NCBI RefSeq assembly: GCF_900117395.1
Contig: NZ_FPEG01000001.1
Location: forward strand, 580,192-644,191
Origin: Agrococcus sp. Marseille-P2731
Lineage (GTDB): Bacteria; Actinomycetota; Actinomycetes; Actinomycetales; Microbacteriaceae
DNA: 64,000 nucleotides
Direction of reading: 5' to 3'
Shown here in pieces: positions 1,423 through 35,594 of this stretch (positions within the stretch are counted from its first letter, which is position 1; each line of letters starts with the position of its first letter). Both the position numbers and the translations under genes were made by a program. The notes under the pieces are model-generated. The model searched no databases and was not told the DNA's origin. It saw nothing but the letters and a program-made list of their open reading frames with translations.

Positions 1423-2070
1423 CTAGTCGCCGGCGGGCTCGCCCGCGTCGAGCGCAGCGGTCACCGCTTCGGCGAAGTGCTGCAGCTCGGCGTCGTCGGC
1501 GGTGCCGGCGACGATGACGGTGGATGCGCCGTGCTCGGTCGTGAGCACGAACTCGAGGTTGCCGGGGTCCTCCGTCTCGCGCTGGTCGTGCTCGACCCAG
1601 GTGGTGCCCCCGATCACGCGCTCGCCGGTCGGCACCGCATCCTCGATCGTGGTGACGAGCCAGGTCGGGTTCGCGTCGACCGCCTGCTGGAAGGACAGGA
1701 ACTGCTGCTCGGGCGTCACGTAGCCGGCGTACCAGCTGAAGACCTGATCGGTGCCCGTGCGGATCTCGGCCGCGTTCGACGCCCAGCCCTCGTCGAGCTG
1801 CGGCACGATGAGGGGCTCGTCGGTGGTGACCTGCGCCGCGGCGGCTGCGGCCGCGACGTCGATCGGCTCGCGCGCGGGCAGGCCTGGACGGACGACCACG
1901 AGCACCATCACGAGCACGATGCCCAGGCTGACGGCGACGCCGGCGAGCAGGTTGATGAAGCTGCGGTTCTCGCGGTGACGGCGCGAGGTCTCCGCCTTGC
2001 GGGCAGCGGTCTCCTCCGGCGTCTCCGGTCGCCCGAGCTCTGCGACGACGCGCGGCTCCTTGCGGCTCAT
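1423..2070 (-). CDS. DUF4245 family single-pass membrane protein
   Basis: A 215-residue protein with a charged cytosolic N-terminus (1-37), one membrane segment at about 38-60 and an extracytoplasmic domain that reads like the actinobacterial DUF4245 family. The molecular function of that family is not known. The ATG overlaps the stop of xseB (ATGA), implying translational coupling, and fumC follows directly. The same trio occurs in other actinobacteria, so this is a conserved neighbourhood rather than a chance one. The cytosolic part is rich in Arg and Glu. Confidence 0.85.
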
Positions 2071-2315
2071 GCCTCGTCGGCCTCCGCAGGCGCGGACCCT
2101 GCTGCCGCGCTGCTGCGAGCGGCGTCGAGCCGCTGCTTCGCGCCCTGCAGCCACTGCTCGCAGCGGTCGGCGAGCGCGTTGCCGCGCTCCCACAGCGCGA
2201 GCGACTCCTCGAGCGTCGCACCGCCCGACTCGAGGGCGGTCACGACGCGCACCAGCTCGTCGCGCGCGGCCTCGTAGGAGAGCGCTGCGACGTCGCTGTT
2301 CTCGGGGGTGCTCAC
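2067..2315 (-). CDS. xseB: Exodeoxyribonuclease VII small subunit
   Basis: Small subunit of ExoVII, which degrades single-stranded DNA together with the XseA large subunit. The 82-residue product contains the typical XseB core (YEAARDELVRVVTALESGG, then LEESLALWERGNAL) followed by an Ala/Glu-rich tail. It starts at GTG, six bases after a TAGGCT box, consistent with leaderless translation from its own promoter. Normally xseB directly follows xseA; here 2.6 kb carrying two genes on the other strand separate them. Confidence 0.95.
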   Translation of the reverse strand: MSTPENSDVAALSYEAARDELVRVVTALESGGATLEESLALWERGNALADRCEQWLQGAKQRLDAARSSAAAGSAPAEADEA

Positions 2316-2321
2316 CCCGCC

Positions 2322-2327
2322 AGCCTA
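2322..2327 (-). promoter_or_regulatory. Leaderless -10 box of xseB-DUF4245-fumC
   Basis: TAGGCT on the minus strand ends six bases before the GTG of xseB, so the transcript should begin at or next to the start codon. It shows that xseB no longer depends on an xseA promoter. No convincing -35 was identified. Confidence 0.55.
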
Positions 2328-2411
2328 CCGCTCGCACCCGACATGCGAGACGGCGTCCCGGGGCTGTGCGACGATTGCGGTTTGCGCATCCACCCACCGT
2401 CAGGAGCTCTC

Positions 2412-3587
2412 GTGCCCGCCTCGCCAGCCGCATCCACGATGGCTGAGATCACCGACCTCATCCGCCTCGACACCACCAGCCGCGAGTCGAACCTCGCCCT
2501 CGTCGACCACGTCGTCGAGCGGCTGCGCGCCGTCGGCGTCGAGCCGGTGCTGGTGCCGAACGCGGAGGGCACGAAGGCCAACGTGCTCGCGACCTTCCCC
2601 GCCGCCGACGGCTCGGTCGAAGGCGGGATCGTGCTCTCGGCGCACACCGATGTGGTGCCGGTCGACGGCCAGCGGTGGAGCAGCGAGCCCTTCGAGCCCA
2701 CCGAGCGCGACGGCAGGCTCTACGCGCGCGGCAGCGCCGACATGAAGTCGTTCCTCGGCGTGCTGCTGGCGAAGGCCCCGGCCCTTGCCGAGGCGCAGCT
2801 CGCCGAGCCCGTGCACCTCGCGCTCTCCTACGACGAGGAGGTCGGATGCGTCGGCGCCGTCGACCTCGTCGACGAGATCGTGCGGCGAGGGCTGCGACCG
2901 CGCGGCTGCGTCGTCGGCGAGCCGACGAGCATGCGGATCGTGCGCGGGCACAAGTCGATGAACGTCTTCCGCGCCGAGGTGCGGGGCGTCGCGATCCACT
3001 CCTCGCTCGCTCCGCACGGCGTCAACGCCATCCGCTTCGCGACCGAGCTCGTGCGCTTCGTCGAGGGCGTCGCCGACGAGATGCGCGAGCAGGGTCCCTT
3101 CGACGAGGGCTACCTCGTGCCGTACACGACCGTCAGCGTCAACCGCATCGACGGTGGCATCGCCATCAACACCGTGCCCGCCGAGTGCACGGTGCACTTC
3201 GAGTTCCGGGGCCTGACGAGCATCGACCACGCCGCCCTCTCCGCGCGCTTCGCCGATGAGTGCCGCCGCATCGAGGCCGCCATGCGCGAGCTGGACGACT
3301 CGTGCCGGGTCGAGCTGGCGGTCACCGCCTCGGCCCCCGGCGTGGACACGCCCGCCGACGCCCAGATCGTCGCGCTCGCCGCCGAGTGGGGCGGCGAGCC
3401 CAGCGACGCCAAGGTCACCTACGGCACCGAGGCGGGGCTGTTCGCCGAGGCCGGGATCCCCACCGTCGTGTGCGGCCCTGGCGACATCGCCCAGGCGCAC
3501 GGCCCCGACGAGTTCGTCGAGCTCGAGCAGATCGCGCAGTGCGAGACCTTCGTCGACCGGCTCATCGACGGCCTCCGCGCCGCCTGA
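2412..3587 (+). CDS. M20 family amidohydrolase (acetylornithine deacetylase-like)
   Basis: A 391-residue zinc peptidase/deacylase of the ArgE/DapE/CPG2 superfamily. Visible metal and catalytic positions are H78-T-D80 (SAHTDVVP), D110 in GSADMKSF, the acidic pair in SYDEEVGC (142-143), a Glu in VVGEPTS (about 171) and a late His in AQAHGPDEF. The start is GTG because AGGAG lies six bases upstream; the frame is open further upstream but without a ribosome site. It closely resembles ArgE-type enzymes, but pairing with a transporter 26 bp downstream and not with arginine genes suggests it deacylates an imported N-acyl amino acid or dipeptide (inference). Confidence 0.85.
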   Translation: MPASPAASTMAEITDLIRLDTTSRESNLALVDHVVERLRAVGVEPVLVPNAEGTKANVLATFPAADGSVEGGIVLSAHTDVVPVDGQRWSSEPFEPTERDGRLYARGSADMKSFLGVLLAKAPALAEAQLAEPVHLALSYDEEVGCVGAVDLVDEIVRRGLRPRGCVVGEPTSMRIVRGHKSMNVFRAEVRGVAIHSSLAPHGVNAIRFATELVRFVEGVADEMREQGPFDEGYLVPYTTVSVNRIDGGIAINTVPAECTVHFEFRGLTSIDHAALSARFADECRRIEAAMRELDDSCRVELAVTASAPGVDTPADAQIVALAAEWGGEPSDAKVTYGTEAGLFAEAGIPTVVCGPGDIAQAHGPDEFVELEQIAQCETFVDRLIDGLRAA

Positions 3588-3613
3588 CCACCACGTCCCA
3601 TCCAGGAGCACCC

Positions 3614-4888
3614 ATGACCACCACCGCGCCCCAGGCCACGCCCGAACGGCTCGCCGCCGCCCGCAAGGCGGTGATCTCCAGCTCGATCGGCGCCGCCCTC
3701 GAGTGGTTCGACATCATCGTCTACGCCTCGTTCGCGGTGGTCATCACCGAGGTGTTCTTCCCCGACGCCGGCGCCTACGGCCTCATCTACACCTTCGCGA
3801 CCTTCGCGACGACCTACCTCATCCGCCCCCTCGGCGGCATGGTGCTCGGCAGCTTCGCCGACCGCAAGGGCCGCAAGAACGCGCTCACCATCACGCTGCT
3901 GCTCATGATGGTGGGCACGCTCCTGATGGCCATCGCGCCCACCTACGCGATGGTCGGCGTCTGGGGCGGCGTGGTCATCCTGCTCTCGCGCCTCATCCAG
4001 GGCTTCTCCGCCGGCGGCGAGTTCGGCACGGCGACGACCTTCCTGATCGAGACCGCGCCGCACAAGAAGATGTTCTACGCCTCGTGGCAGATCGCCGCGC
4101 AGGGCGCCTCGATGCTGCTCGCGTCGGGCTTCGGCTTCGCGCTCAACACCTGGCTGTCGGAGGAGGACCTCTACTCCTGGGGCTGGCGCGTGCCGTTCTT
4201 CGTCGGCCTGCTGATCGGCCCGGTCGGCCTCTACATCCGCGCGCGCCTCGCAGAGCCCGAGGAGCTCGGCGCGACCGAGCGCACGAAGTCGCCGCTCGGC
4301 TCGCTGCTGCGCGAGCACCTCGGCCGGGTGCTCGCCGGCTCTGCCGTCATCGGCGTCGCGACGATCTCGGTCTACATGATCCTCTACATGCCCACCTTCG
4401 CGGTCTCGAACCTGGGCATCCCGCCGACCGCCGCCTACCTCGGCGGCGTCGTGGCGGGCACGATCACGGTCTTCGGCTCGCCCTTCGTCGGGCACCTGGC
4501 CGACCGCTTCGGCCCCGCGCGCATCATGACCTACGCCGCGGTCGCGGCGCTCGTGCTCGCGTGGCCGATCTTCCAGATCATCGTGACGCTGCGCAGCGTG
4601 CCGGCGCTCATCATCGCGATCGCGCTGCTCGGCGCCATCATGACGTGCTACTTCGCGCCGCTGCCCGGCCTGCTGTCGAACATGTTCCCGAAGGAGGTGC
4701 GCGGCACCGGCCTCTCTGTCGCGTACAACGTCGGCGTCACCCTGCTCGGCGGCATCGCGCCGCTCGTGCTGACGTGGCTGCTGACGGTGACCGGATCGCT
4801 CAACGCGCCGAGCATCTACTACATGGCGATCGCCGTGCTCTCGCTCGTCGGCCTGTACTTCGTGCGCAAGCGCTACAGCCAGCGCTGA
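3614..4888 (+). CDS. MFS transporter, metabolite:H+ symporter (MHS) type
   Basis: A 424-residue, 12-helix secondary transporter. The N-terminal region (SSSIGAALEWFDIIVYA) and the loop GSFADRKGRKNAL are hallmarks of the MHS branch that includes ProP, KgtP and ShiA, which move organic acids, betaines or amino-acid derivatives with protons. AGGAG precedes the ATG by five bases. It lies 26 bp after the M20 hydrolase and is probably co-transcribed with it, so it may import the substrate of that enzyme. Substrate cannot be read from sequence. The operon runs against the flanking xse genes and ends at a shared hairpin. Confidence 0.88.
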   Translation: MTTTAPQATPERLAAARKAVISSSIGAALEWFDIIVYASFAVVITEVFFPDAGAYGLIYTFATFATTYLIRPLGGMVLGSFADRKGRKNALTITLLLMMVGTLLMAIAPTYAMVGVWGGVVILLSRLIQGFSAGGEFGTATTFLIETAPHKKMFYASWQIAAQGASMLLASGFGFALNTWLSEEDLYSWGWRVPFFVGLLIGPVGLYIRARLAEPEELGATERTKSPLGSLLREHLGRVLAGSAVIGVATISVYMILYMPTFAVSNLGIPPTAAYLGGVVAGTITVFGSPFVGHLADRFGPARIMTYAAVAALVLAWPIFQIIVTLRSVPALIIAIALLGAIMTCYFAPLPGLLSNMFPKEVRGTGLSVAYNVGVTLLGGIAPLVLTWLLTVTGSLNAPSIYYMAIAVLSLVGLYFVRKRYSQR

Positions 4889-4895
4889 TCGCTCG

Positions 4896-4925
4896 CGCGA
4901 CCCCGGGCTGTGGCTCGGGGTCGCG
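4896..4925. terminator. Bidirectional hairpin between MFS gene and xseA
   Basis: CGCGACCCCG (4896-4905) pairs perfectly with CGGGGTCGCG (4916-4925) around a 10-base loop. It lies in the 43-bp gap between two convergent stop codons. There is no clear T tract, as is common in GC-rich actinobacteria. Confidence 0.7.
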
Positions 4926-4931
4926 TCGCGG

Positions 4932-6155
4932 TCAGTGCTCCGGATGCGCGGCGCGCACGTCCGCGTCCAGGGTGCCGGAGGCGAGGGTCACCAGCAGCGC
5001 GTCGCCCGCCGTGACGGCCGCCGCGTCGCGCGCGACCGAGCCGGAGGCCGTCTGCACGACGGCGTAGCCGCGGTCGAGCGTCGCCTGCGGGCTGAGCGCC
5101 CGGAGCGTCTGGCGCAGGTGGTCGAGCCGCTGGCCGTGCAGCTCGACGCTGCGGGCTGCCAGCTCGTCGCTGCGCGCGGTCAGCCGCGCGAGGTCCTGCC
5201 AGAGCGACTCGAGCATCGTGCCGGGGCGAGCGAGCGCTGGCCGGGATCGGAAGGACTCCAGCCGCTCCGCCTCGCGGTGCACGTGCTGCGTGGCCCTGGC
5301 GCGCAGCTGCGCCCGCGCCTGCGTGATCCGGTTGAGCTCCTCCGCGACGTCGGGCACGATGCGCTTCGCCGCATCCGTCGGCGTCGACGCGCGCAGGTCG
5401 GCGACCTCGTCGAGCAGCGGGCGGTCGGCCTCGTGGCCGATCGCCGAGACGATCGGCGTGGTGGCGGCGGCGACCGCGCGCACGAGCGCCTCGTCGCTGA
5501 AGCCGAGCAGGTTCTGGAAGTCGCCGCCGCCGCGCGCGATGACGATGACGTCGACCTCGGGGTCTGCCTCGAGCCGCGCGAGCGCCGCGAGCACGGTCGG
5601 CACCGTCTGGTCGCCCTGCACGGCGGCGTGCTCGACGCGGAACTCGACCCCTGGCCAGCGCAGCTGGGCGTTGCGGAGCACATCCTTCTCGGCGTCGGAG
5701 TCGCGTCCGGTGATGAGGCCGATGCGGTTCGGCAGGAACGGCAGCGGCCGCTTGCGCGAGGCGTCGAAGAGGCCCTCCTGCGCGAGGCTGCGTCGCAGCG
5801 CCTCGAGGCGGGCGAGCAGCTCGCCGAGGCCGACGTGGCGGATCTGGGCGGCGACCATCGAGAGGGTGCCGCCGCGCGGCCAGTAGTCGGGCTTCACGAG
5901 CAGCACCGCGCGGTCGCCCTGGGCGAAGTCGCCCTCGATGCGGCTGAGCGTCGAGCTCCAGACGTTGAACGAGATGGTGGCGTCGGCCGAGACGTCCTTG
6001 AGCTTGCCAAACACGTTGCCCCGCGAGTTCGACCACTGGGTGATCTCGCCCTCGACCCAGAGGTGGCCGAGGCGCCCGATGTAGCTCTTGAGCTCTGCGC
6101 CGAGGCGCTCGACGCTCCACGGCTCGTCGGGGGTGCCGGTGATGCGCTCCGCCAT
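4932..6155 (-). CDS. xseA: Exodeoxyribonuclease VII large subunit
   Basis: Catalytic subunit of ExoVII. The 407-residue product has the N-terminal OB-fold (LWVEGEITQW, then VFGKLKDVSADATISFNVW), the nuclease-domain motif IGLITGRDSDAEKDV near residue 147, the glycine-rich VIVIARGGGDFQNL and SAIGHEADRPLLDEVADLRA. The C-terminal part is helical. Its ATG follows an AGAGGAG ribosome site. It is divergent from ispH, as usual in actinobacteria, but its normal downstream partner xseB lies beyond an inserted operon. Confidence 0.96.
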   Translation of the reverse strand: MAERITGTPDEPWSVERLGAELKSYIGRLGHLWVEGEITQWSNSRGNVFGKLKDVSADATISFNVWSSTLSRIEGDFAQGDRAVLLVKPDYWPRGGTLSMVAAQIRHVGLGELLARLEALRRSLAQEGLFDASRKRPLPFLPNRIGLITGRDSDAEKDVLRNAQLRWPGVEFRVEHAAVQGDQTVPTVLAALARLEADPEVDVIVIARGGGDFQNLLGFSDEALVRAVAAATTPIVSAIGHEADRPLLDEVADLRASTPTDAAKRIVPDVAEELNRITQARAQLRARATQHVHREAERLESFRSRPALARPGTMLESLWQDLARLTARSDELAARSVELHGQRLDHLRQTLRALSPQATLDRGYAVVQTASGSVARDAAAVTAGDALLVTLASGTLDADVRAAHPEH

Positions 6156-6223
6156 CGTGCTCCTCTGGTGTGCCGGTCTGTTCGCCCTTGGCGACCGCGG
6201 GGGTCGCGGGCTGGCTCCAACGG

Positions 6224-6229
6224 TAGACT
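6224..6229 (+). promoter_or_regulatory. Leaderless -10 box of ispH
   Basis: TAGACT is followed after six bases by the GTG at 6236, which places the expected transcription start on the start codon. Confidence 0.55.
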
Positions 6230-6235
6230 GGGCCG

Positions 6236-7264
6236 GTGACGATCACGAACGGAAGGGTGCCGCTGGACATGCCGCGGCCTGCGCTCCGGAGGGGTCGGCT
6301 CCAGGATCTCCCGGTCGGCGGCGAGAAGCGGATCCTGCTCGCGACCCCGCGCGGCTACTGCGCGGGCGTCGACCGCGCGGTGCTCGCCGTCGAGAAGGCG
6401 CTCGAGCAGTACGAGGGCCCGATCTACGTGCGCAAGGAGATCGTGCACAACAAGCACGTCGTCTCGCAGCTGACCGAGCAGGGCGCGATCTTCGTCGACG
6501 AGGTCGACCAGGTGCCCGAGGGCGAGCGCGTGATCTTCAGCGCCCACGGCGTCAGCCCCGCGGTCGTGCAGGGCGCCGCGGATCGCGGCCTGGACGCGAT
6601 CGATGCGACGTGCCCGCTCGTGACGAAGGTGCACCGCGAGGCCGTGCGCTTCGCGCGCGACGACTACGAGATCCTGCTCGTCGGCCACGAGGGCCACGAG
6701 GAGGTCGAGGGCACCGCCGGGCACGCCCCCGATCGCGTCACGATCGTGAACAACCCGGACGAGGCCGACACCGTGCAGGTGCAGAACCCCGACCGGCTCG
6801 TCTGGCTCAGCCAGACGACGCTCTCGGTCGACGAGACGATGGAGACCGTGCGCCGACTGCGCGTGCGCTTCCCCAACCTGCAGGACCCGCCGAGCGACGA
6901 CATCTGCTACGCCACCCAGAACCGCCAGGTCGCCATCAAGAAGGTGGCGGCGGATGCGGATCTCGTCATCGTCGTCGGCAGCGCGAACTCGTCGAACTCG
7001 GTGCGGCTCGTCGAGGTGGCGCTGGAGTACGGCGCGAAGGCCGCGTACCGCGTCGACTACTCGAGCGAGATCCAGCAGGAGTGGCTCGAGGGCGTGCACT
7101 CGATCGGCGTGACGAGCGGCGCGAGCGTGCCGGAGGGCCTGGTGCACGAGGTGCTGCAGGAGCTCGACGACGCCGGCTACCGCGACATCGCCGAGATCCG
7201 CACGGCCGAGGAGGACCTCATCTTCTCCCTGCCCAAGGAGCTGCGCCCGACCCGCAGGCGCTGA
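6236..7264 (+). CDS. ispH: 4-hydroxy-3-methylbut-2-enyl diphosphate reductase
   Basis: Last enzyme of the MEP isoprenoid pathway; reduces HMBPP to IPP and DMAPP with a [4Fe-4S] cluster. The three cluster cysteines are present: C42 (PRGYCAGVD), C126 (DATCPLVTK) and C224 ([10 protein letters not shown]). The substrate-contact histidines H71 (VHNKHV) and H104 (SAHGVS) and the EVEGT loop are also seen. The GTG start is chosen because a TAGACT box sits six bases upstream. An ATG at 6269 with GGAAGG upstream is the alternative and would give a protein 11 residues shorter at the N-terminus. Confidence 0.97.
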
Positions 7265-7290
7265 TCCTGGTGGCGCTCAGGCGCCGTGGC

Positions 7291-7296
7291 TACGAT
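7291..7296 (+). promoter_or_regulatory. Leaderless -10 box of the acidic protein gene
   Basis: TACGAT followed by seven bases and then the ATG at 7304. Confidence 0.5.
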
Positions 7297-7303
7297 CGGC
7301 CCC

Positions 7304-7642
7304 ATGACTGACGCACAGCCCCAGAACGAGCAGGCCCCGACCGAGCAGGACGACCAGTGGGCCGACCAGATGGCCGACGGCGAGGACTTCGACGAGTCGA
7401 TGGGCGACTCGACCGATGAGGACCGCGTGCTGGCCACCGACCAGCTCGACGAGATCGGCAGCGACGACGCCCCGGAGGGCGCGGAGGGCCGAGACGAGGA
7501 GTGGGAGGGGGACGACCCCGCCGACATCCCCGACGAGCACGGCGGCACGCAGGCGGGCGTCGACACCGACGACAACGGCGTCGACGACACCGTGATGCCC
7601 GAGGGCACCGACCGCATCATCGACGCGGGCGACTGGGAGTAG
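7304..7642 (+). CDS. Very acidic small hypothetical protein
   Basis: A 112-residue soluble protein in which roughly 40% of residues are Asp or Glu, spread over the whole length, with few hydrophobic stretches; it is probably intrinsically disordered. The end (MPEGTDRIIDAGDWE) is the least biased part. I do not recognise a family. It has its own TACGAT box and lies between ispH and a strong shared terminator with fbaA. Codon bias matches its neighbours, so it looks native. An earlier in-frame ATG at 7286 overlaps the promoter and is less likely as a start. Confidence 0.75.
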   Translation: MTDAQPQNEQAPTEQDDQWADQMADGEDFDESMGDSTDEDRVLATDQLDEIGSDDAPEGAEGRDEEWEGDDPADIPDEHGGTQAGVDTDDNGVDDTVMPEGTDRIIDAGDWE

Positions 7643-7667
7643 CGCACCTCCGCCGGACGAGGAGCGA

Positions 7668-7707
7668 GACGGAGGACGGGCACCCCGAGGGGTGCCCGTC
7701 CTCCGTC
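7668..7707. terminator. Strong bidirectional terminator
   Basis: GACGGAGGACGGGCACCCC (7668-7686) is complementary over 19 bases to 7689-7707, with only GA left between them; in practice about 18 pairs around a CGAG tetraloop. It separates the convergent acidic-protein gene and fbaA. Confidence 0.85.
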
Positions 7708-29822: not shown

Positions 29823-30305
29823 TCAGGTGCGCAGCACGACTCGAACCCGCGGACGCAGGTCGAGGAGAGTGGCACGACGAGCGCCCGGGCCAGATCGTCT
29901 GACGACTCGGCGCAGACGAGCCTCGATGCTGCTGCGATGCCGTGGCGGCCGCACCAGCAGGTCTGCTCGGTGTGGCGCGAGCTCCGGACGGTGGGTGAGA
30001 TCGACGCCGGTGCTCTGCGGCGCCCGGATCGCCAGGCCCCGCGGCCCGTCCGCGGCCGACGAGGAGCGCGGGTGGGCGGTCTGCACGCCCGGTCCTCGCC
30101 GAGCAGCCGGTGCAGCGCTCGAGTCAGCCGCCGCCCGCATCGCGGCGAGGGTGGGCTCGCCGCTGCGCGTCGCGCGGGCAGAGCGGTCGGCGGGGCGCAG
30201 CTGGGCGCGAACGCGCCAATGCCCCGGGCCGGTGCCGTCTGCCTCGACCAGGAGGCGACCGGCGTGGACCTCGAGGTGGTAATAGTTGCAGAGCAGGATG
30301 CCGTT
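29823..30305 (-). pseudogene. 3' fragment of a DUF222/HNH endonuclease gene
   Basis: Read on the minus strand from the element border, the frame begins NGILLCNYYHLEVHAGR, which is the Asn...His half of an HNH motif, and continues 160 codons to a stop through an Arg/Pro-rich tail. The missing first part of the gene lies 3.87 kb away (34167-35441), in the same orientation and in the matching codon phase. The fragment lacks its own start and is probably not expressed as a nuclease. Confidence 0.85.
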
Positions 30306-30306
30306 G
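30299..30306. repeat. Left attachment-site core (direct repeat 1)
   Basis: TGCCGTTG, identical to 34166-34173. On the coding strand of the HNH gene it is CAACGGCA, covering the conserved Asn-Gly codons of the HNH motif. Confidence 0.7.
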
Positions 30307-30318
30307 GCGACACCTCGT

Positions 30319-30324
30319 TAGTCT
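30319..30324 (+). promoter_or_regulatory. Leaderless -10 box of the serine recombinase
   Basis: TAGTCT followed by six bases and the ATG at 30331, just inside the left element border. Confidence 0.5.
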
Positions 30325-30330
30325 GACCTC

Positions 30331-31742
30331 ATGAGGAGCATCCGGTCGGCGGAGATCTACGCGCGCATCTCTCGGGACCAGGCGGGCGAGGGCCTCGGGA
30401 TCGCCCCGGCAGCTGGAAGATTGTCGTCGGCGCGCGGCTGGCCGTGGCCGAGGGGTACGTCGACAACGACGTGTCGGCGTACCGCGCGAAGGCGCATCCT
30501 CAGTACGCCCGCATGCTCGCAGACATCGAGGCTGAACGGATCGACGCGGTGCTCGCCTACCACAAGGACCGGCTGACGCGACGGCCGATCGAATTCGAGG
30601 AGTTTACGGCGCTGTGCTTTCGCTCCGGCGTCGAGCAGCTGGCGACCGTCGCGTCCGACGTGGATTTCGGCAACGACAACGGCATGCTCGTTGCCCGGAT
30701 CACCGCTGCAGTCGCCGCGAACGAGTCGGCGCGAAAGTCGGCCCGCGTCAAGCGCAAGGTTCTGCAGAACGTCGAACAGGGGTTGCCGAACGGTGGCGCG
30801 AATCGCCCGTTCGGCTACGAGCCGGACAGGATCACGGTGCGGGAGTCAGAGGCCAAGATCATCCGGGTCTTGGCGTCGCGGTTCCTCGCGGGCGAGTCTC
30901 TGCGCTCGCTGGTGTCGTGGATGAACGCCCAGGAGATCCCGACGACCGGCAAGGCCGAGGAGTGGCGCACGCCGACACTGCGGCAGATCCTGACAGGAGG
31001 GCGGATCGCTGGTGTCCGCGACCACCGGGGCGAGCCGGCCGGCCCAGCCGCGTGGCCGGCGATCATCACCGCCGAGCAGCACGAGCAGATCCGGGCCGTG
31101 ATGCGTTCAAAGCAGCGAACCGGGCAGAGGACGCCGCGCCGCTACCTGCTCAGCGGACTGCTGCTGTGCGGAAAGTGCGGGAATCGGCTCTACAGCGCAG
31201 CGCGGCAAGAACGCCGTCGCTACGTGTGCCAGGCGGGCCCAGACGATGGCGGATGCGGGCGGCTGACCGTCGTGGCGCAGCCCGTCGAGGATTTGATCGC
31301 ACGCGCGGTCCTGATGCGACTCGACACCCCAGCCATGGCCGACACGCTCGCGGGCCGCGCGGCCGCGGACGAGCGTCACGCAAGCCTTGTTGCCGAGGTC
31401 GCCGCCGCCCAGGCGAGGATGACGGAACTCGCGGAGATGTTCGGCCTGCGCGAGATCACGCGCCCCGAGTGGCTCGCGGCGCGAAAGCCAGCCGAGACGC
31501 GCATCGTCGCCGCTCAGCGGCAACTGGACCAGATCAGCGGAGCAAACGCGCTCGATGGTCTGGTCGGGGACGGCGTCGCCCTCGGTGAATCGTGGGCGCA
31601 GCTGAACCTGGACCGCCAGCACGCCATCGTGCGCGCCGTGATGGAGTCCGCCACCGTACTGCCGGGCCAGCCGGGCCAGCCGGGCCAGCCGGGGGCGCGG
31701 GGCCTCGACTCGTCCCGCATCGTTCCCCGTTGGGTCTCCTAG
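30331..31742 (+). pseudogene. Large serine recombinase (integrase) with two frameshifts
   Basis: The first frame gives the catalytic N-terminus (AEIYARISRDQAGEGLGIA; the Ser of ARISRD is the nucleophile). The conserved RQLEDCR appears only in a second frame at 30407-30427. From about 30435 a third frame continues (LAVAEGYVDNDVSAY) to the end with LAYHKDRLTRRP, the recombinase domain, the zinc-ribbon cysteines (LLCGKCGNRLY...YVCQ...GCGRL), a coiled coil and a Gly-Gln-Pro tail. Joined length is about 470 residues, typical for such integrases. The slips lie at a CCCC run near 30404-30407 and between 30428 and 30437; either real decay or sequencing error. Integrates or excises the surrounding element. 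Confidence 0.88.
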
Positions 31743-31904
31743 GAGCGCCCGGAGCGCGGCGCGGCACCTGCGGTGCCCCCCGGCCGCTCCCAGCAGAACC
31801 CCGACTTGCGAAACGAGCGCGGGATCCGTGACGTGTACAGGCACGCCCTGCGCCTCACACGAGGCGACGAGCCTCGCACGCACCGCGTCGAGATCGCCGC
31901 TCAC
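31107..31904 (-). CDS. Small element protein of unknown function (3' extent uncertain)
   Basis: The GTG has a TAGGGGC ribosome site and lies 12 bp after the Rep stop. The first 85 or so residues look like a real protein (SGDLDAVRARLVASCEAQG, then VHVTDPALVSQVGVLLG). Beyond that the frame runs antisense to the recombinase and loses protein-like character, so the true product may be shorter or the 3' end may have been lost. Similar short proteins accompany Rep genes of actinobacterial elements. An ATG at 31973 is an alternative start overlapping the Rep gene. Confidence 0.4.
   Translation of the reverse strand: MSGDLDAVRARLVASCEAQGVPVHVTDPALVSQVGVLLGAAGGHRRCRAALRALLGDPTGNDAGRVEAPRPRLARLARLARQYGGGLHHGAHDGVLAVQVQLRPRFTEGDAVPDQTIERVCSADLVQLPLSGDDARLGWLSRREPLGARDLAQAEHLREFRHPRLGGGDLGNKACVTLVRGRAARERVGHGWGVESHQDRACDQILDGLRHDGQPPASAIVWARLAHVATAFLPRCAVEPIPALSAQQQSAEQVAARRPLPGSLL
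31662..31688 (+). repeat. 9-bp repeat CCGGGCCAG x3
   Basis: Three perfect copies encoding Pro-Gly-Gln near the C-terminus of the recombinase. Confidence 0.7.
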
Positions 31905-31915
31905 GGTCAACGCCC

Positions 31916-32584
31916 CTACTGCGCCCAAATCGCGGGTGCTCCCTGCCACTCGGGGTTCTCGAGCGACGACCACTGAGTGAAGGGCTGCCCGCCCATCAAC
32001 CCCGATGCGTCTTCGAGCACGGCATGAGCAGATCGGCCCGGCAGGCGAAGGCGCTCCGGCTGGAAGCGCTGAGCCACGTCGTATCGGTGTGAGCCGAGGT
32101 CGCGGCCGCCCGCATCAGAGAAGGTCTTCGCGACGTACTTGGACAGGTAGGTTGCCGCGATCCGCGCCTCCGAAACCGCGCCAGCACCCACCGGGAGGTC
32201 CCCGATCAACCTGATATCGATAAAGCCGCGGCCCCAGGCCATCTCGATCAGGCTGCGCTTGATGTACCGGCCGACCGCGAAGTGCGCGTGGAGCCCGTGC
32301 CCGCTCTTGTGCCACTCGGGCACCCAGGCATACGGCAAGGGCTGGCCGTCGAGCGACGAGCGGAGATCACAGGAGAACTCGCCGAGATTCTCGCGCAGGA
32401 CGGCCGCGTCGTGGTTGCCCGAGCCGCGATACGTGAGCGTGCCGAGCCGGTCCAGGCGATTTGCGGCGCAATAGCGGCGCAGCTTGGGCCGCGCGCGACG
32501 GCCAGCCTCTGCTGCGGACCGTTCAGGGTCCACTGCCTGACCGCGCGCGACGTACGCGGGACCGTCCGCATGCGCCGCTGGCAC
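31916..32584 (-). CDS. HUH-type replication initiator (Rep) of the element
   Basis: A 222-residue protein with the motifs of rolling-circle Rep-like HUH nucleases: motif I LGTLTYRG near residue 48, metal-binding HAHFAVG in WHKSGHGLHAHFAVGRY (motif II, near residue 100), and the catalytic-Tyr region YLSKYVAK (motif III). The preceding helix RARPKLRRYCAANRLDRL is typical of actinobacterial element Reps. The N-terminus is shorter than most relatives, so it may be truncated or start upstream at a non-standard codon. It would nick a replication or transfer origin, perhaps in the 430-bp gap upstream. Confidence 0.75.
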   Translation of the reverse strand: MPAAHADGPAYVARGQAVDPERSAAEAGRRARPKLRRYCAANRLDRLGTLTYRGSGNHDAAVLRENLGEFSCDLRSSLDGQPLPYAWVPEWHKSGHGLHAHFAVGRYIKRSLIEMAWGRGFIDIRLIGDLPVGAGAVSEARIAATYLSKYVAKTFSDAGGRDLGSHRYDVAQRFQPERLRLPGRSAHAVLEDASGLMGGQPFTQWSSLENPEWQGAPAIWAQ

Positions 32585-33014
32585 GAGCCACCGCCCTCAC
32601 CCGCGGCCGGGCAGAGTGTGAACGACCAGCCCGCATCTGGGCGCAACAGAGTCGACAGCGGTGACGTGGAGGGGACTGACACGAGGGAGACCGTTCGGAG
32701 GCGTCGACAAAGGAGTCGCCCAGAACAGATGTTCGCGCGATGGGCACCGGCCGGTGGCGTCGCACGGCCACTCGGGTACGGGGCCCCTCTGCAGTTCTTG
32801 TCTCGGGTCGCCCGCCGGATCTACCTGTCGGGACTTGCTCACATCTAAGCCGAAGCAGTTCGCGCGGCGCAACCGCGCGCAGCTGCCGGGCAGCCGCCCC
32901 CTACGGCGCCGCCCGCTTGCCACCAATGAGGTGAGCGGCTCCCGAGTTATGTTGCAGATTCAAGTCAAGGGGCGCTCCGCGCCCGGTAGGGTTCGGGAAC
33001 GCTCAAGAGCAACA
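32585..33014. other. Rep-cargo divergent intergenic region
   Basis: 430 bp between the divergent Rep and membrane-protein genes. Open frames cross it, but none has convincing protein character. A TAGGGT hexamer at 32987-32992 may be the -10 of the cargo gene. A Rep nick site or double-strand origin would be expected here, but I could not recognise one by eye. Confidence 0.45.
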
Positions 33015-34145
33015 ATGAGGGAGCCGTTTGTGCTAGCTGCATTCGTCGATGGGTTGATGCCGGGAATCCGGAGCCTTCGCCCGCCCGTATTTGCGGGCAT
33101 CCTTTGGGGCTTGCTCGCGTGGATACTAATCGCCAACGAGGTTCCTGCTGCCGGTGAAGCCACGGGATGGCTCAGTCAGGTTTATGCCGTGATGGGCTCG
33201 ATCGGTAGTGCGGGCCTGGCAGTCGTCGTCAGCGTCGCGGTCTTCTTGATCGGAGTTGCCGCGCTCGCGCTTACAGAGCCATTGACGTCAATGGTTGGGC
33301 GATCCGGCAGGGAGTTCGCAGCCCTTGCTCAGTGGCAGCGACACGCCCGAATACGGCGCAAGCACTTCAAGAAAATTAAAGTGGATGCATTGGAAGTCCT
33401 AGAATCAACGACCGAAGAATCCGGTTATTCGGTGCGACGCCGGGAAGCGGCCGAGGCGAACCTCGCCGAGGCGGAACAGGCTGAGAAGTACTTCGGGGGC
33501 CGCGCCAATCCACGACGCCTGTACACTCCGCGCTCGAAGAAGGCGCGTCAGGTCATCGGGGAGCCACCTCTGTCTGCGTTCGAGTCTGAGTCCGCCGTCG
33601 TCCAGCAGCTCATCGTCGATGCTCTATACGATGCAATGTACGCAGACCAAAAGGCACCAGACGATTACTTCCGCTTCTTCGTCGACGAAAGCGGGCATCC
33701 CAAGATCGCCGAACGCTTGCATAAAGAACTCGGCTCTGACCCACTCGAAGTGGTTAGGGTCTTGGACGAAGGACTGTACAGCGACTTGGATCGCGAACGC
33801 GGCGAACGATTGGTTCGCCTCGCGGTCTCAACCCCAATGGTCGCACTGGGTGTCTTCATCGGGACGACCATTGAACCTTGGATCGGAGTCGTCATTGCGG
33901 CGGCTGGTACGATCCTGCTGGTGCGTCATTCAACCGTGCAATCTGGCGAACGTAGTCGAATCCTGAACCTATTGATCCTGAATAACCGGCACACTCAGGC
34001 GATGAAGGCGGCAGTGCGAGAGGGTCAACTCCGCTACGCGGCGCTCCGAAGGGAGTACGACCGGGACATAGAGCGCGAGGCGGAGAGGGAGCAACGAGCC
34101 GCGGAGTTTGCTGCGCAAGGACAGCAGGAGCCGAAGACGCCTTAG
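33015..34145 (+). CDS. Unknown membrane protein, cargo of the element
   Basis: A 376-residue protein with two N-terminal helices (about 20-45 and 55-90), a charged soluble middle part (95-265) with a helical segment AAEANLAEAEQAEKYF and a domain rich in Asp/Glu/Lys, two more helices (about 278-315: TPMVALGVFIGTTIEPWIG, then VVIAAAGTILLVRH), and a C-terminal charged coiled coil (REYDRDIEREAEREQRAAE). No enzymatic motif seen. Codon use is AT-richer than anything else in the window, a sign of recent transfer. The frame is open to 32661, but the ATG with AAGAGC upstream and immediate hydrophobic homogeneity is preferred. Fourfold membrane topology plus coiled coil is compatible with a defence or superinfection-exclusion protein, a guess only. 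Confidence 0.75.
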   Translation: MREPFVLAAFVDGLMPGIRSLRPPVFAGILWGLLAWILIANEVPAAGEATGWLSQVYAVMGSIGSAGLAVVVSVAVFLIGVAALALTEPLTSMVGRSGREFAALAQWQRHARIRRKHFKKIKVDALEVLESTTEESGYSVRRREAAEANLAEAEQAEKYFGGRANPRRLYTPRSKKARQVIGEPPLSAFESESAVVQQLIVDALYDAMYADQKAPDDYFRFFVDESGHPKIAERLHKELGSDPLEVVRVLDEGLYSDLDRERGERLVRLAVSTPMVALGVFIGTTIEPWIGVVIAAAGTILLVRHSTVQSGERSRILNLLILNNRHTQAMKAAVREGQLRYAALRREYDRDIEREAEREQRAAEFAAQGQQEPKTP

Positions 34146-35441
34146 GGGGGCGGCTTCCAGAATTGTGCCGTTGTTCACGTCGGTGCGGCCGCCGTGCTCC
34201 CACCAGACGACGTGGTGCGCCTCGCACCAGGCGGCGGGGATGCCGCAGCCGCGCACGCGGCAGCCGCGATCGCGGACGGCCAGCGCCCGTCGCTGCGCGC
34301 GGGTGAAGAGCCGCTCGGCGCGGCCAAGCTCGAGCACGTGACCTTCGGCATCGACCACCGCTCGCTGGAGCGCCGCATGGCAGAGGAATCGGCCGATGGT
34401 CTCGATCGGCACGAGGTCGCCCGTGTGCTCGATCGTGAGCGTGCGATCCGTCGAGGGCCGGTCGTGCAGGTAGTCGCCGAATGCCTGGACGGTGCCGGTG
34501 AGCACCAGCACCGGAGGCTCGCCGGCGGCGACCGGGGCGTCGCCCGAGGCCGCGTGCGCCTGCACGAGCCCGACGAGCACGTCGTGGCGCTTCTGCTCCG
34601 GCGTGCGGTCGTCGAGCGGGGCCTCTTCCTCGAGCGGGTCACCGTCGCCTGCGTGAGGCACCTCGGCGCCGTCGACGTCGCAACCGGGCTCGCCGTCGTC
34701 GCGGAACGCGACGCGCACCCGCGGTGACAGGTAGGCATCCAGCAGCGACTTGATCGCGGCGGCGGCCTCTGGCGGGCAGACCATGCGCAGCTGCCACATG
34801 CCGTCCTCCTGCTGCCAGAGCTTGAGACTGCGCATCGCGCGCTGGCGCTCGGCAGAGGGGAGCACGCCGTCGGGGTCGAGGACCGCGACGTAGGCCCGTG
34901 CCTGCGTCACCAGCAGCTCTGGACCGAGCGGGGCGTGGGGGTCGGTCGCCGCGTCCACCAGCGCGCCCTCGGCCCACGCGAGGATCGCGAGGTCGGCGCG
35001 CGGCGAGGCAGGCTCGAGGTGGTCGACGATCGCCTGCGCCTGCGCCAGCGAGATCCCGGCAGCGTCGAAGGCCGCAGCGACCCTCGGGTACTTCGCGGCG
35101 ACGTCGCCGCCCGTGAGGCTCAGCTGCGGAGTCGTCAGCGCAGCCATCCGCAGCAGCGCCTGGGCCGCGCTGCCGCGGATGCCGAGCACGGCGGCGACCG
35201 CGGCCCGCGCGTGCCTGTGGCCCATCGTGCGGCAGAGCGCCTGGTCAGCGGGGCCGCGCGAGCGCTCCCCGAGCTCGCCGGCCAGCCGCACCTGCAGTGC
35301 GGTGAGCGTGCGGGAGAGCTCTGCCGCGTGACCGAGCACCGCGACGACCTCGCGATCGGTCATCGAGGCGAACGAGGGGGCCCCGGCGAGCAGCGCGCGA
35401 GCGGCGTCGGCTGCTGCCGCTACCTGCTCGATCCCCGTCAC
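33969..35441 (-). pseudogene. DUF222/HNH endonuclease, 5' part, interrupted by the element
   Basis: Starts at GTG behind AAGGAGCGCAG. Residues 1-423 are native: DUF222 domain (LAGELGERSRGPADQALC, LILAWAEGAL-type helices, VCPPEAAAAIKSLLDAYLSP) and the first HNH half (CRVRGCGIPAAWCEAHH, then WWEHGGRTDVNNG). After NNG the frame runs 67 codons through element DNA to a stop, so the His-containing second half is absent; it survives at 29823-30305. HNH proteins of this family are abundant in actinobacteria and of uncertain function; here the catalytic motif is split. Confidence 0.88.
34166..34173. repeat. Right attachment-site core (direct repeat 2)
   Basis: TGCCGTTG, matching 30299-30306. Flanks differ on both sides apart from these eight bases, as expected for attL/attR of a serine integrase. 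Confidence 0.7.
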
Positions 35442-35594
35442 CTGCGCTCCTTCGTTGCGAGCGATCCAGGCGGGGCCACTGACATCGCTCGAGCGCTGTG
35501 GAGGACCGGGATGCGCGCCCGGCCGAGCTCGAGCGCGCGCCGCGCGCCGCGCATCCGCCGCGCGCCGCGCATCCGCCGCGCCCATCGCGACGCA

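Follow-up and report, generated by a model that had tools for sequence, protein, structure and literature searches.

Closest described systems

The actinomycete integrative and conjugative elements (AICEs) join an integrase and a rolling-circle-type replication gene in one integrated unit (PMC3218068). So does the small insert that is the subject of this article. It lies in a 64,000-nucleotide stretch of the genome of Agrococcus sp. Marseille-P2731 (contig NZ_FPEG01000001.1, positions 580,192 to 644,191), which we call the window, and it splits a DUF222/HNH endonuclease gene within its HNH motif. We think it probable that the insert belongs to a family of small elements. By our prediction a serine recombinase splices these elements into the HNH-motif codons of DUF222 genes; they likely move about as circles made by rolling-circle replication, and they carry one exchangeable gene, probably often an anti-phage gene.

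The element here differs from the AICEs in having no FtsK/TraB translocase, in a replication protein (Rep) that is not RepSA, RepAM or Prim-Pol, in its size (3.9–5.8 kb across the family) and in its one variable cargo module. The nearest printed precedent we found is Faln2929, an actinobacterial AICE; it has a serine recombinase, interrupts a putative endonuclease gene, and its excision has been observed (PMC3218068). Small integrated units that are able to borrow transfer functions from others, as might happen here, are known as integrative mobilizable elements (compare PMC5704250). In the element here neither a relaxase nor an oriT was identified, no search being aimed at them, and Rep might act as the relaxase. 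Our literature searches found no description of elements that combine a large serine recombinase, a Rep of the PF23343 family and one cargo module.

An initial annotation of the window, made by a model from its letters, had compared the insert with phiRv1 in the 13E12 repeats, whose proteins we take to be DUF222/HNH. The phiRv1 element of Mycobacterium tuberculosis does use a serine recombinase within a repeated gene family, REP13E12, as PMC9317374 describes, and at the level of the gene family the comparison stands. The likeness is partial: phiRv1 is prophage-like in the papers, whereas the element here consists of three genes, none of phage structure.

What we find in the family is, on the one side, a recombinase with Resolvase, Recombinase and zinc-ribbon domains and a short shared core with a common dinucleotide in all 14 elements whose two ends are known, as in serine-integrase elements; on the other, a Rep that belongs to a rolling-circle initiator family (PF23343, PHROG 3419). 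In its predicted way of working the family resembles a pared-down AICE, or a rolling-circle plasmid that integrates. It does not qualify as an AICE, having no FtsK and another Rep, nor as a prophage, having no phage genes.

A gene split at one codon

The split gene runs on the minus strand (Table 1). Its N-terminal part breaks off at GGRTDVNNG, and with the insert taken out the two halves fuse in one frame as GGRTDVNNG-ILLCNYYHLEVH. At either end of the insert stands the 8-bp sequence TGCCGTTG, equivalent points of the two copies being 3,867 bp apart. The initial annotation had proposed all of this (the 8-bp direct repeats, the length, the matching codon phase and the Asn-Gly codons of a DUF222/HNH gene as the target), and it holds: the N-terminal part is DUF222 by Pfam, and the split falls at the Asn. 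The coordinates it gave, 29823–35441, do span the element and the split gene, but the DUF222 open frame begins at 35585. The serine recombinase, Rep, the shared 27-bp motif, the exchange of cargo and the frame breaks, all described below, had escaped it. Taken by itself the 8-bp repeat is weak evidence and could have arisen by chance. The window holds four copies of TGCCGTTG against 1.1 expected, and four or more copies turned up in 4 of 100 shuffles. What makes the insertion convincing is that the syntenic gene of a related species is uninterrupted at the junction and that DUF222 genes are split at this very codon by 13 further elements.

The syntenic gene came from a search of 30 relative loci for the neighbouring alpha/beta-hydrolase gene, which was found at two of them, L012 and L039. 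L012 belongs to another species of the genus. The hydrolase there is 78% identical, and the DUF222 gene beside it is uninterrupted, matching the rejoined halves at 288 of 468 residues (62%) with no gap at the junction; this is the uninterrupted homologue with the joined sequence that was sought, at the same chromosomal place. At L039 (1657–3306), in another species, an unrelated open reading frame (ORF) interrupts the syntenic orthologue close to these HNH codons; by eye it reads as a transposase, so that L039 and the window show two kinds of insertion at one spot.

The initial annotation also expected many possible sites per genome, and this is supported. We counted eight DUF222 places in this genome, and one of the other genes has, at the corresponding codon, a further element of the family that has decayed. 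A search of the genome for the 18-mer site with two mismatches gave four matches, and the reversed pattern gave three. This leaves as meaningful the two exact 18-mer matches alone: the interrupted gene and one uninterrupted DUF222 copy. The second element (locus L153, own genome C2:747000–758000, at 2047–7700) is internally deleted. It reads as a DUF222 N half ending at column 463 of our own DUF222 profile, cargo, the 27-bp motif described below, a remnant of the recombinase (columns 2–48) and a DUF222 C half; Rep is gone, and GmrSD_N and HEPN genes are still present.

Recurrence at the same codon

Searching 99 relative genomes with the recombinase gave matches in 36. All five loci at 43% identity or above, the window included, have both DUF222 and Rep within 1.5 kb; neither DUF222 nor a PF23343 Rep was found in flanks of up to 1.5 kb at any of the 25 distant serine-recombinase loci (25–36% identity). 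A scan of the GTDB contig collection then yielded 36 named loci (L071 and L073 were dropped as duplicates of two of these), which together with the window, L070 and L072 make the set of 39 used below.

Both DUF222 halves, as judged by our own profile of 540 columns, flank the element at 14 of the 39 loci. The N halves end at columns 461–465 and the C halves start at 458–462. That all 14 N halves should end in one five-column stretch has a chance of about 2e-26 if insertion were uniform, a figure to be read with the shared ancestry of the family in mind. Comparison of the elements gives the same boundary as the initial annotation. In 13 elements it is the C half that adjoins the recombinase. 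Three more loci show a C half only (L076, L082 and L095; in the last two the contig ends first), two show an HNH-like C half by eye (L080 and L089), and at four (L091, L092, L107 and L108) the recombinase has upstream of it, again by eye, the C half of what we take to be a CpaF/TadA-type ATPase, broken at its GKT motif.

The ends themselves are also alike. Read in the DUF222 sense, the C-side end of the element starts near GTCAnATTAGC and the N-side end has the form (g/c)ACAAnTT...CCCC. In all 14 elements the two sides agree at positions 1, 2 and 4 of the Asn-Gly codons, and positions 1 and 2 of the Asn codon are the only adjacent pair common to all, AA in 11 and GA in three. The length of the shared core varies among relatives from about 2 to 11 bp.

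We built a tree of 37 recombinases, L089 and L108 being too short to include. In it the window sequence pairs with L070 (100/99), and the three CpaF-site recombinases form one clade; HNH targeting requires 7 changes, where shuffles require 12.6. At E <= 1e-60 the recombinase is found in 16 of 398 genomes of the bacterial family. Recombinases 53–54% identical to those of the family also occur on a Gordonia plasmid (L137) and a Mycobacterium avium plasmid (L138), where they adjoin FtsK/SpoIIIE genes in an AICE-like setting.

Anatomy of the window copy

Table 1. Features of the split gene and of the integrated element (positions in the window)
Feature	Position	Strand	Remarks
C-terminal part of the split DUF222/HNH gene (ILLCNYYHLEVH...)	29823-30298	-	joins the N part in one frame once the insert is taken out; own profile columns 459-538
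8-bp shared core, recombinase end	30299-30306		only adjacent letter pair common to all 14 elements is 30304-30305
Integrated element, 3,867 bp	30307-34173		66.4% G+C against 72.7% in the window
Serine recombinase start (IYARIS...)	30331-30576	+	frame differs from the rest; first 40 residues of intact relatives match here (tblastn)
Large serine recombinase, main part	30444-31742	+	PF00239, PF07508, PF13408 (Resolvase, Recombinase, zinc-ribbon); PHROG integrase E 5.5e-76
Rolling-circle Rep (ORF2/G2P type), main frame	31916-32584	-	PF23343 E 5e-12; PHROG rolling-circle initiation (PHROG 3419) E 3e-17
Rep N-terminal residues (about the first 43 of relatives)	32551-32667	-	other frame than main Rep
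Conserved 27-bp motif CGAGTTATGTTGCAGATTCAAGTCAAG	32943-32969	+	candidate replication origin and cargo boundary
Short G+C hairpin directly 3' of the motif	32970-32984	+	read from sequence; most relatives also have hairpins behind the motif
Orphan cargo gene; product of membrane type, mostly helical	33015-34145	+	no match in Pfam, PADLOC, PHROGs or NCBIfam
8-bp shared core, cargo end	34166-34173		shared dinucleotide 34171-34172
N-terminal part of the split DUF222/HNH gene, to ...GGRTDVNNG	34174-35585	-	PF02720 E 1.5e-33; own profile columns 24-465

Both the recombinase and the Rep of the window copy are broken in frame relative to intact relatives, the first 40 and the first 43 residues, respectively, being displaced; in the relatives the recombinase N terminus is intact. 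Labedella phragmitis, Cryobacterium gelidum and Demequina aestuarii are among the cultured species whose elements have intact genes. Decay is likelier than bad assembly as the cause, because the neighbouring hydrolase gene and the DUF222 N part remain open. With both frames broken, this copy is probably no longer autonomous. Rep has HxH and Y-x3-K-like motifs, read by eye. Pfam and PHROG scans of the element found no phage structural, packaging or lysis gene among its three genes, no FtsK/TraB-type translocase among its ORFs, and no inovirus-type morphogenesis ATPase or coat domain beside Rep.

Rep and its companion motif

A PF23343 Rep is present at 25 of the 39 loci. The pattern CGAGTTATGTTGCTTATTCAAGTAAAG, with up to seven differences allowed, was found at 23 of these 25 (not L086 or L087), at one of 15 loci without Rep (the decayed copy L153) and in none of 100 random sequences. 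With a stricter form of the pattern the 398 genomes gave 21 sites in 19 genomes and the reversed control none; Rep lies within 1.5 kb at 12 of the 21, once in partial form. The ends of two small contigs, L087 and L092, do not overlap, and thus nothing shows these contigs to be circular. A Rep (P0052) and a relative of a cargo protein (P0123) are each found on six contigs, the longest 4,045 bp, and these contigs may represent one element.

A constant backbone and a changing cargo

The recombinase-Rep backbone is common to the family and the cargo varies. We compared nine informative pairs of elements, chosen for their closeness, and in none does DNA similarity enter the cargo. It stops at the motif and hairpin in four pairs (window–L070, L078–L082, L078–L084 and L102–L184) and before the motif in the other five. 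Two elements with different cargo share one genome in two cases, the window with L153, and L078 with L084 in Lacisediminihabitans profunda.

The 14 bounded elements and L153 provide 15 cargo modules. Seven match domains typical of phage defence: AIPR/AbiU (L074 and L083), a CAP12-type TIR (L096), a TIR effector found by PADLOC only (L084), SIR2/ThsA (L097), RelA_SpoT/PDC-S33 (L077) and, by Pfam only, GmrSD_N with HEPN (L153). Three have weak or generic matches (PIN_8 in L075, AAA/PDC-S59 in L078 and HEAT/OloA in L094). The remaining five have no recognised domain; they are the modules of the window, L070 (below the cut-off), L081, L085 and L102.

For the window's own cargo, at least three close relatives are among the matches listed (7,994 candidates scored). 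From six other genomes with a match we took four distant relatives and scanned one neighbouring ORF of each; two of the four are AbiTii or MrcB_N, which is no more than a hint of a defence role for this cargo family. A first fold model reached a pLDDT of 50.8 and a second a pLDDT of 69.9 with a pTM of 0.51, and Foldseek against the PDB returned nothing at E <= 0.001 (best 0.28).

One two-gene cargo, an AAA_21-type ATPase with a small partner, was seen in two settings, accompanied by recombinase and Rep in one and only by the motif in the other (L079, 11910–13843, and L180, 5294–7194). In two sister species (L182, 6887–8524, and L183, 4864–7231) different motif-plus-cargo inserts, in opposite orientation and without recombinase or Rep, occupy one locus, which adjoins an intact DUF222 gene; both have in common, near the far end, a segment of 92 bp that bears a hairpin.

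How the elements might work

What we observe is a gene split at one codon, an in-frame empty site, a backbone that recurs at the same codon, a shared motif and a changing cargo. In the mechanism we propose, the recombinase would join the att site of the element to the gene at the shared dinucleotide, the first two bases of the Asn codon, and excision would restore the DUF222 gene. Rep would make circles, acting at or near the 27-bp motif, and the cargo would be retained because it helps the host. The HNH codons would be chosen because the DNA for this motif is conserved across a large gene family, which offers a site in nearly every actinobacterial genome and often several.

A tentative alternative is that we are looking at a reduced AICE or a mobilizable derivative of one, which has lost its FtsK-type transfer gene and depends on a helper. 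The plasmid recombinases beside FtsK/SpoIIIE genes in Gordonia and M. avium would fit such an origin (the M. avium one also has a replication initiator), as would the serine recombinases of 19 of 144 AICEs (PMC3218068). Against this descent stand the missing FtsK gene of the window element, its PF23343 Rep in place of RepSA, and the recurrence of the small size and layout over many genera.

The motif leaves room for a different doubt, which we likewise hold to be possible without favouring it: motif and hairpin may be a site linked to the cargo, an exchange point or a regulatory end and not an origin, so that motif plus cargo would be the mobile unit and the recombinase-Rep backbone one vehicle among others. 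Nine of the 21 motif sites have no Rep within 1.5 kb, and at seven of the nine an ORF runs towards the motif, its end lying no more than 26 bp from it (at L153 a cargo gene begins at a distance of 37 bp; L176 gives no clear picture); the sister species with different cargo at one locus and the motif in opposite orientations would also suit this view. On the other hand, the orientation of the motif is fixed relative to Rep, the motif accompanies nearly every Rep in the set of 39, and elements in decay may account for the copies that lack Rep, L153 and L179 being clear cases.

Further along the same line is a more speculative proposal, which we rate as unlikely. The 27-bp motif would be an exchange point at which single antiviral genes swap, travelling also as backbone-free units of motif plus gene, and the fixed backbones in DUF222 HNH codons would be minimal defence couriers, a cassette-like system run by rolling-circle replication. 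Integron gene cassettes are single genes exchanged beside a hairpin-bearing site. The element here has no tyrosine integron integrase and no attC, and the likeness is one of layout only.

It is improbable that the insert is, like phiRv1, a small prophage or else a phage satellite, its recombinase left over from a temperate phage that has lost its structural genes. The recombinase does match a PHROG integrase family, and phiRv1 sits in REP13E12 and uses a serine recombinase (PMC9317374). Yet none of the three genes is a structural, packaging or lysis gene, the nearest integrases are 34% identical in phage records and 36% in IMG/VR, and an IMG/VR scan found no relative of Rep and no motif. The three-gene layout recurs in intact relatives, which argues that it is not a random phage remnant. 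Least credible of all is that a common transposon inserted here and duplicated 8 bp of its target, which the flanking repeat and the apparent transposase at L039 might bring to mind, since the shared core varies in length among relatives, unlike a fixed duplication, the sole recombinase is a large serine recombinase, and insertion recurs at one codon.

The reading we prefer, a small-element family that integrates at HNH codons, likely replicates as circles and probably often carries defence genes, has to be weighed against several findings. Its mobility, replication and defence functions are inferred from sequence. At sixteen of the 39 loci we recognised no target, DUF222 or other; the recombinases that are least similar (L101 and L103–L106) all belong to this group. 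One of the five loci at 43% identity or above (L072/L043) adjoins an intact DUF222 gene rather than splitting one, L098 lies near a DUF222 gene that it does not split, and L102 is in reverse orientation. The window copy, frame-broken in both recombinase and Rep, may be dead. Rep was not found in 72,556 plasmid records or in 50,697 phage records, and the nine Rep-less motif sites count here too, as do the cargo modules without a recognised domain, the window's included. As a PADLOC control we ran ordinary flanking genes. Of 10 such genes 3 matched, by generic models of ATPases and methyltransferases, and we then discounted PADLOC matches by way of generic ATPases.

What the elements may mean

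If this reading of a mobile HNH-codon family is true, the unrecognised cargo, the membrane protein of the window included, becomes a list of candidate antiphage genes with defined ends. The recombinases, whose attB lies within a gene family that most of the searched relatives possess, could serve as integration tools for poorly tractable actinobacteria. The 27-bp motif makes it possible to test whether it is a replication origin, a cargo exchange point or both. And the logic of the target, a conserved motif of a multi-copy gene family (in four cases apparently another family, at its ATPase motif), hints at how an element so small can find a site in almost any host.

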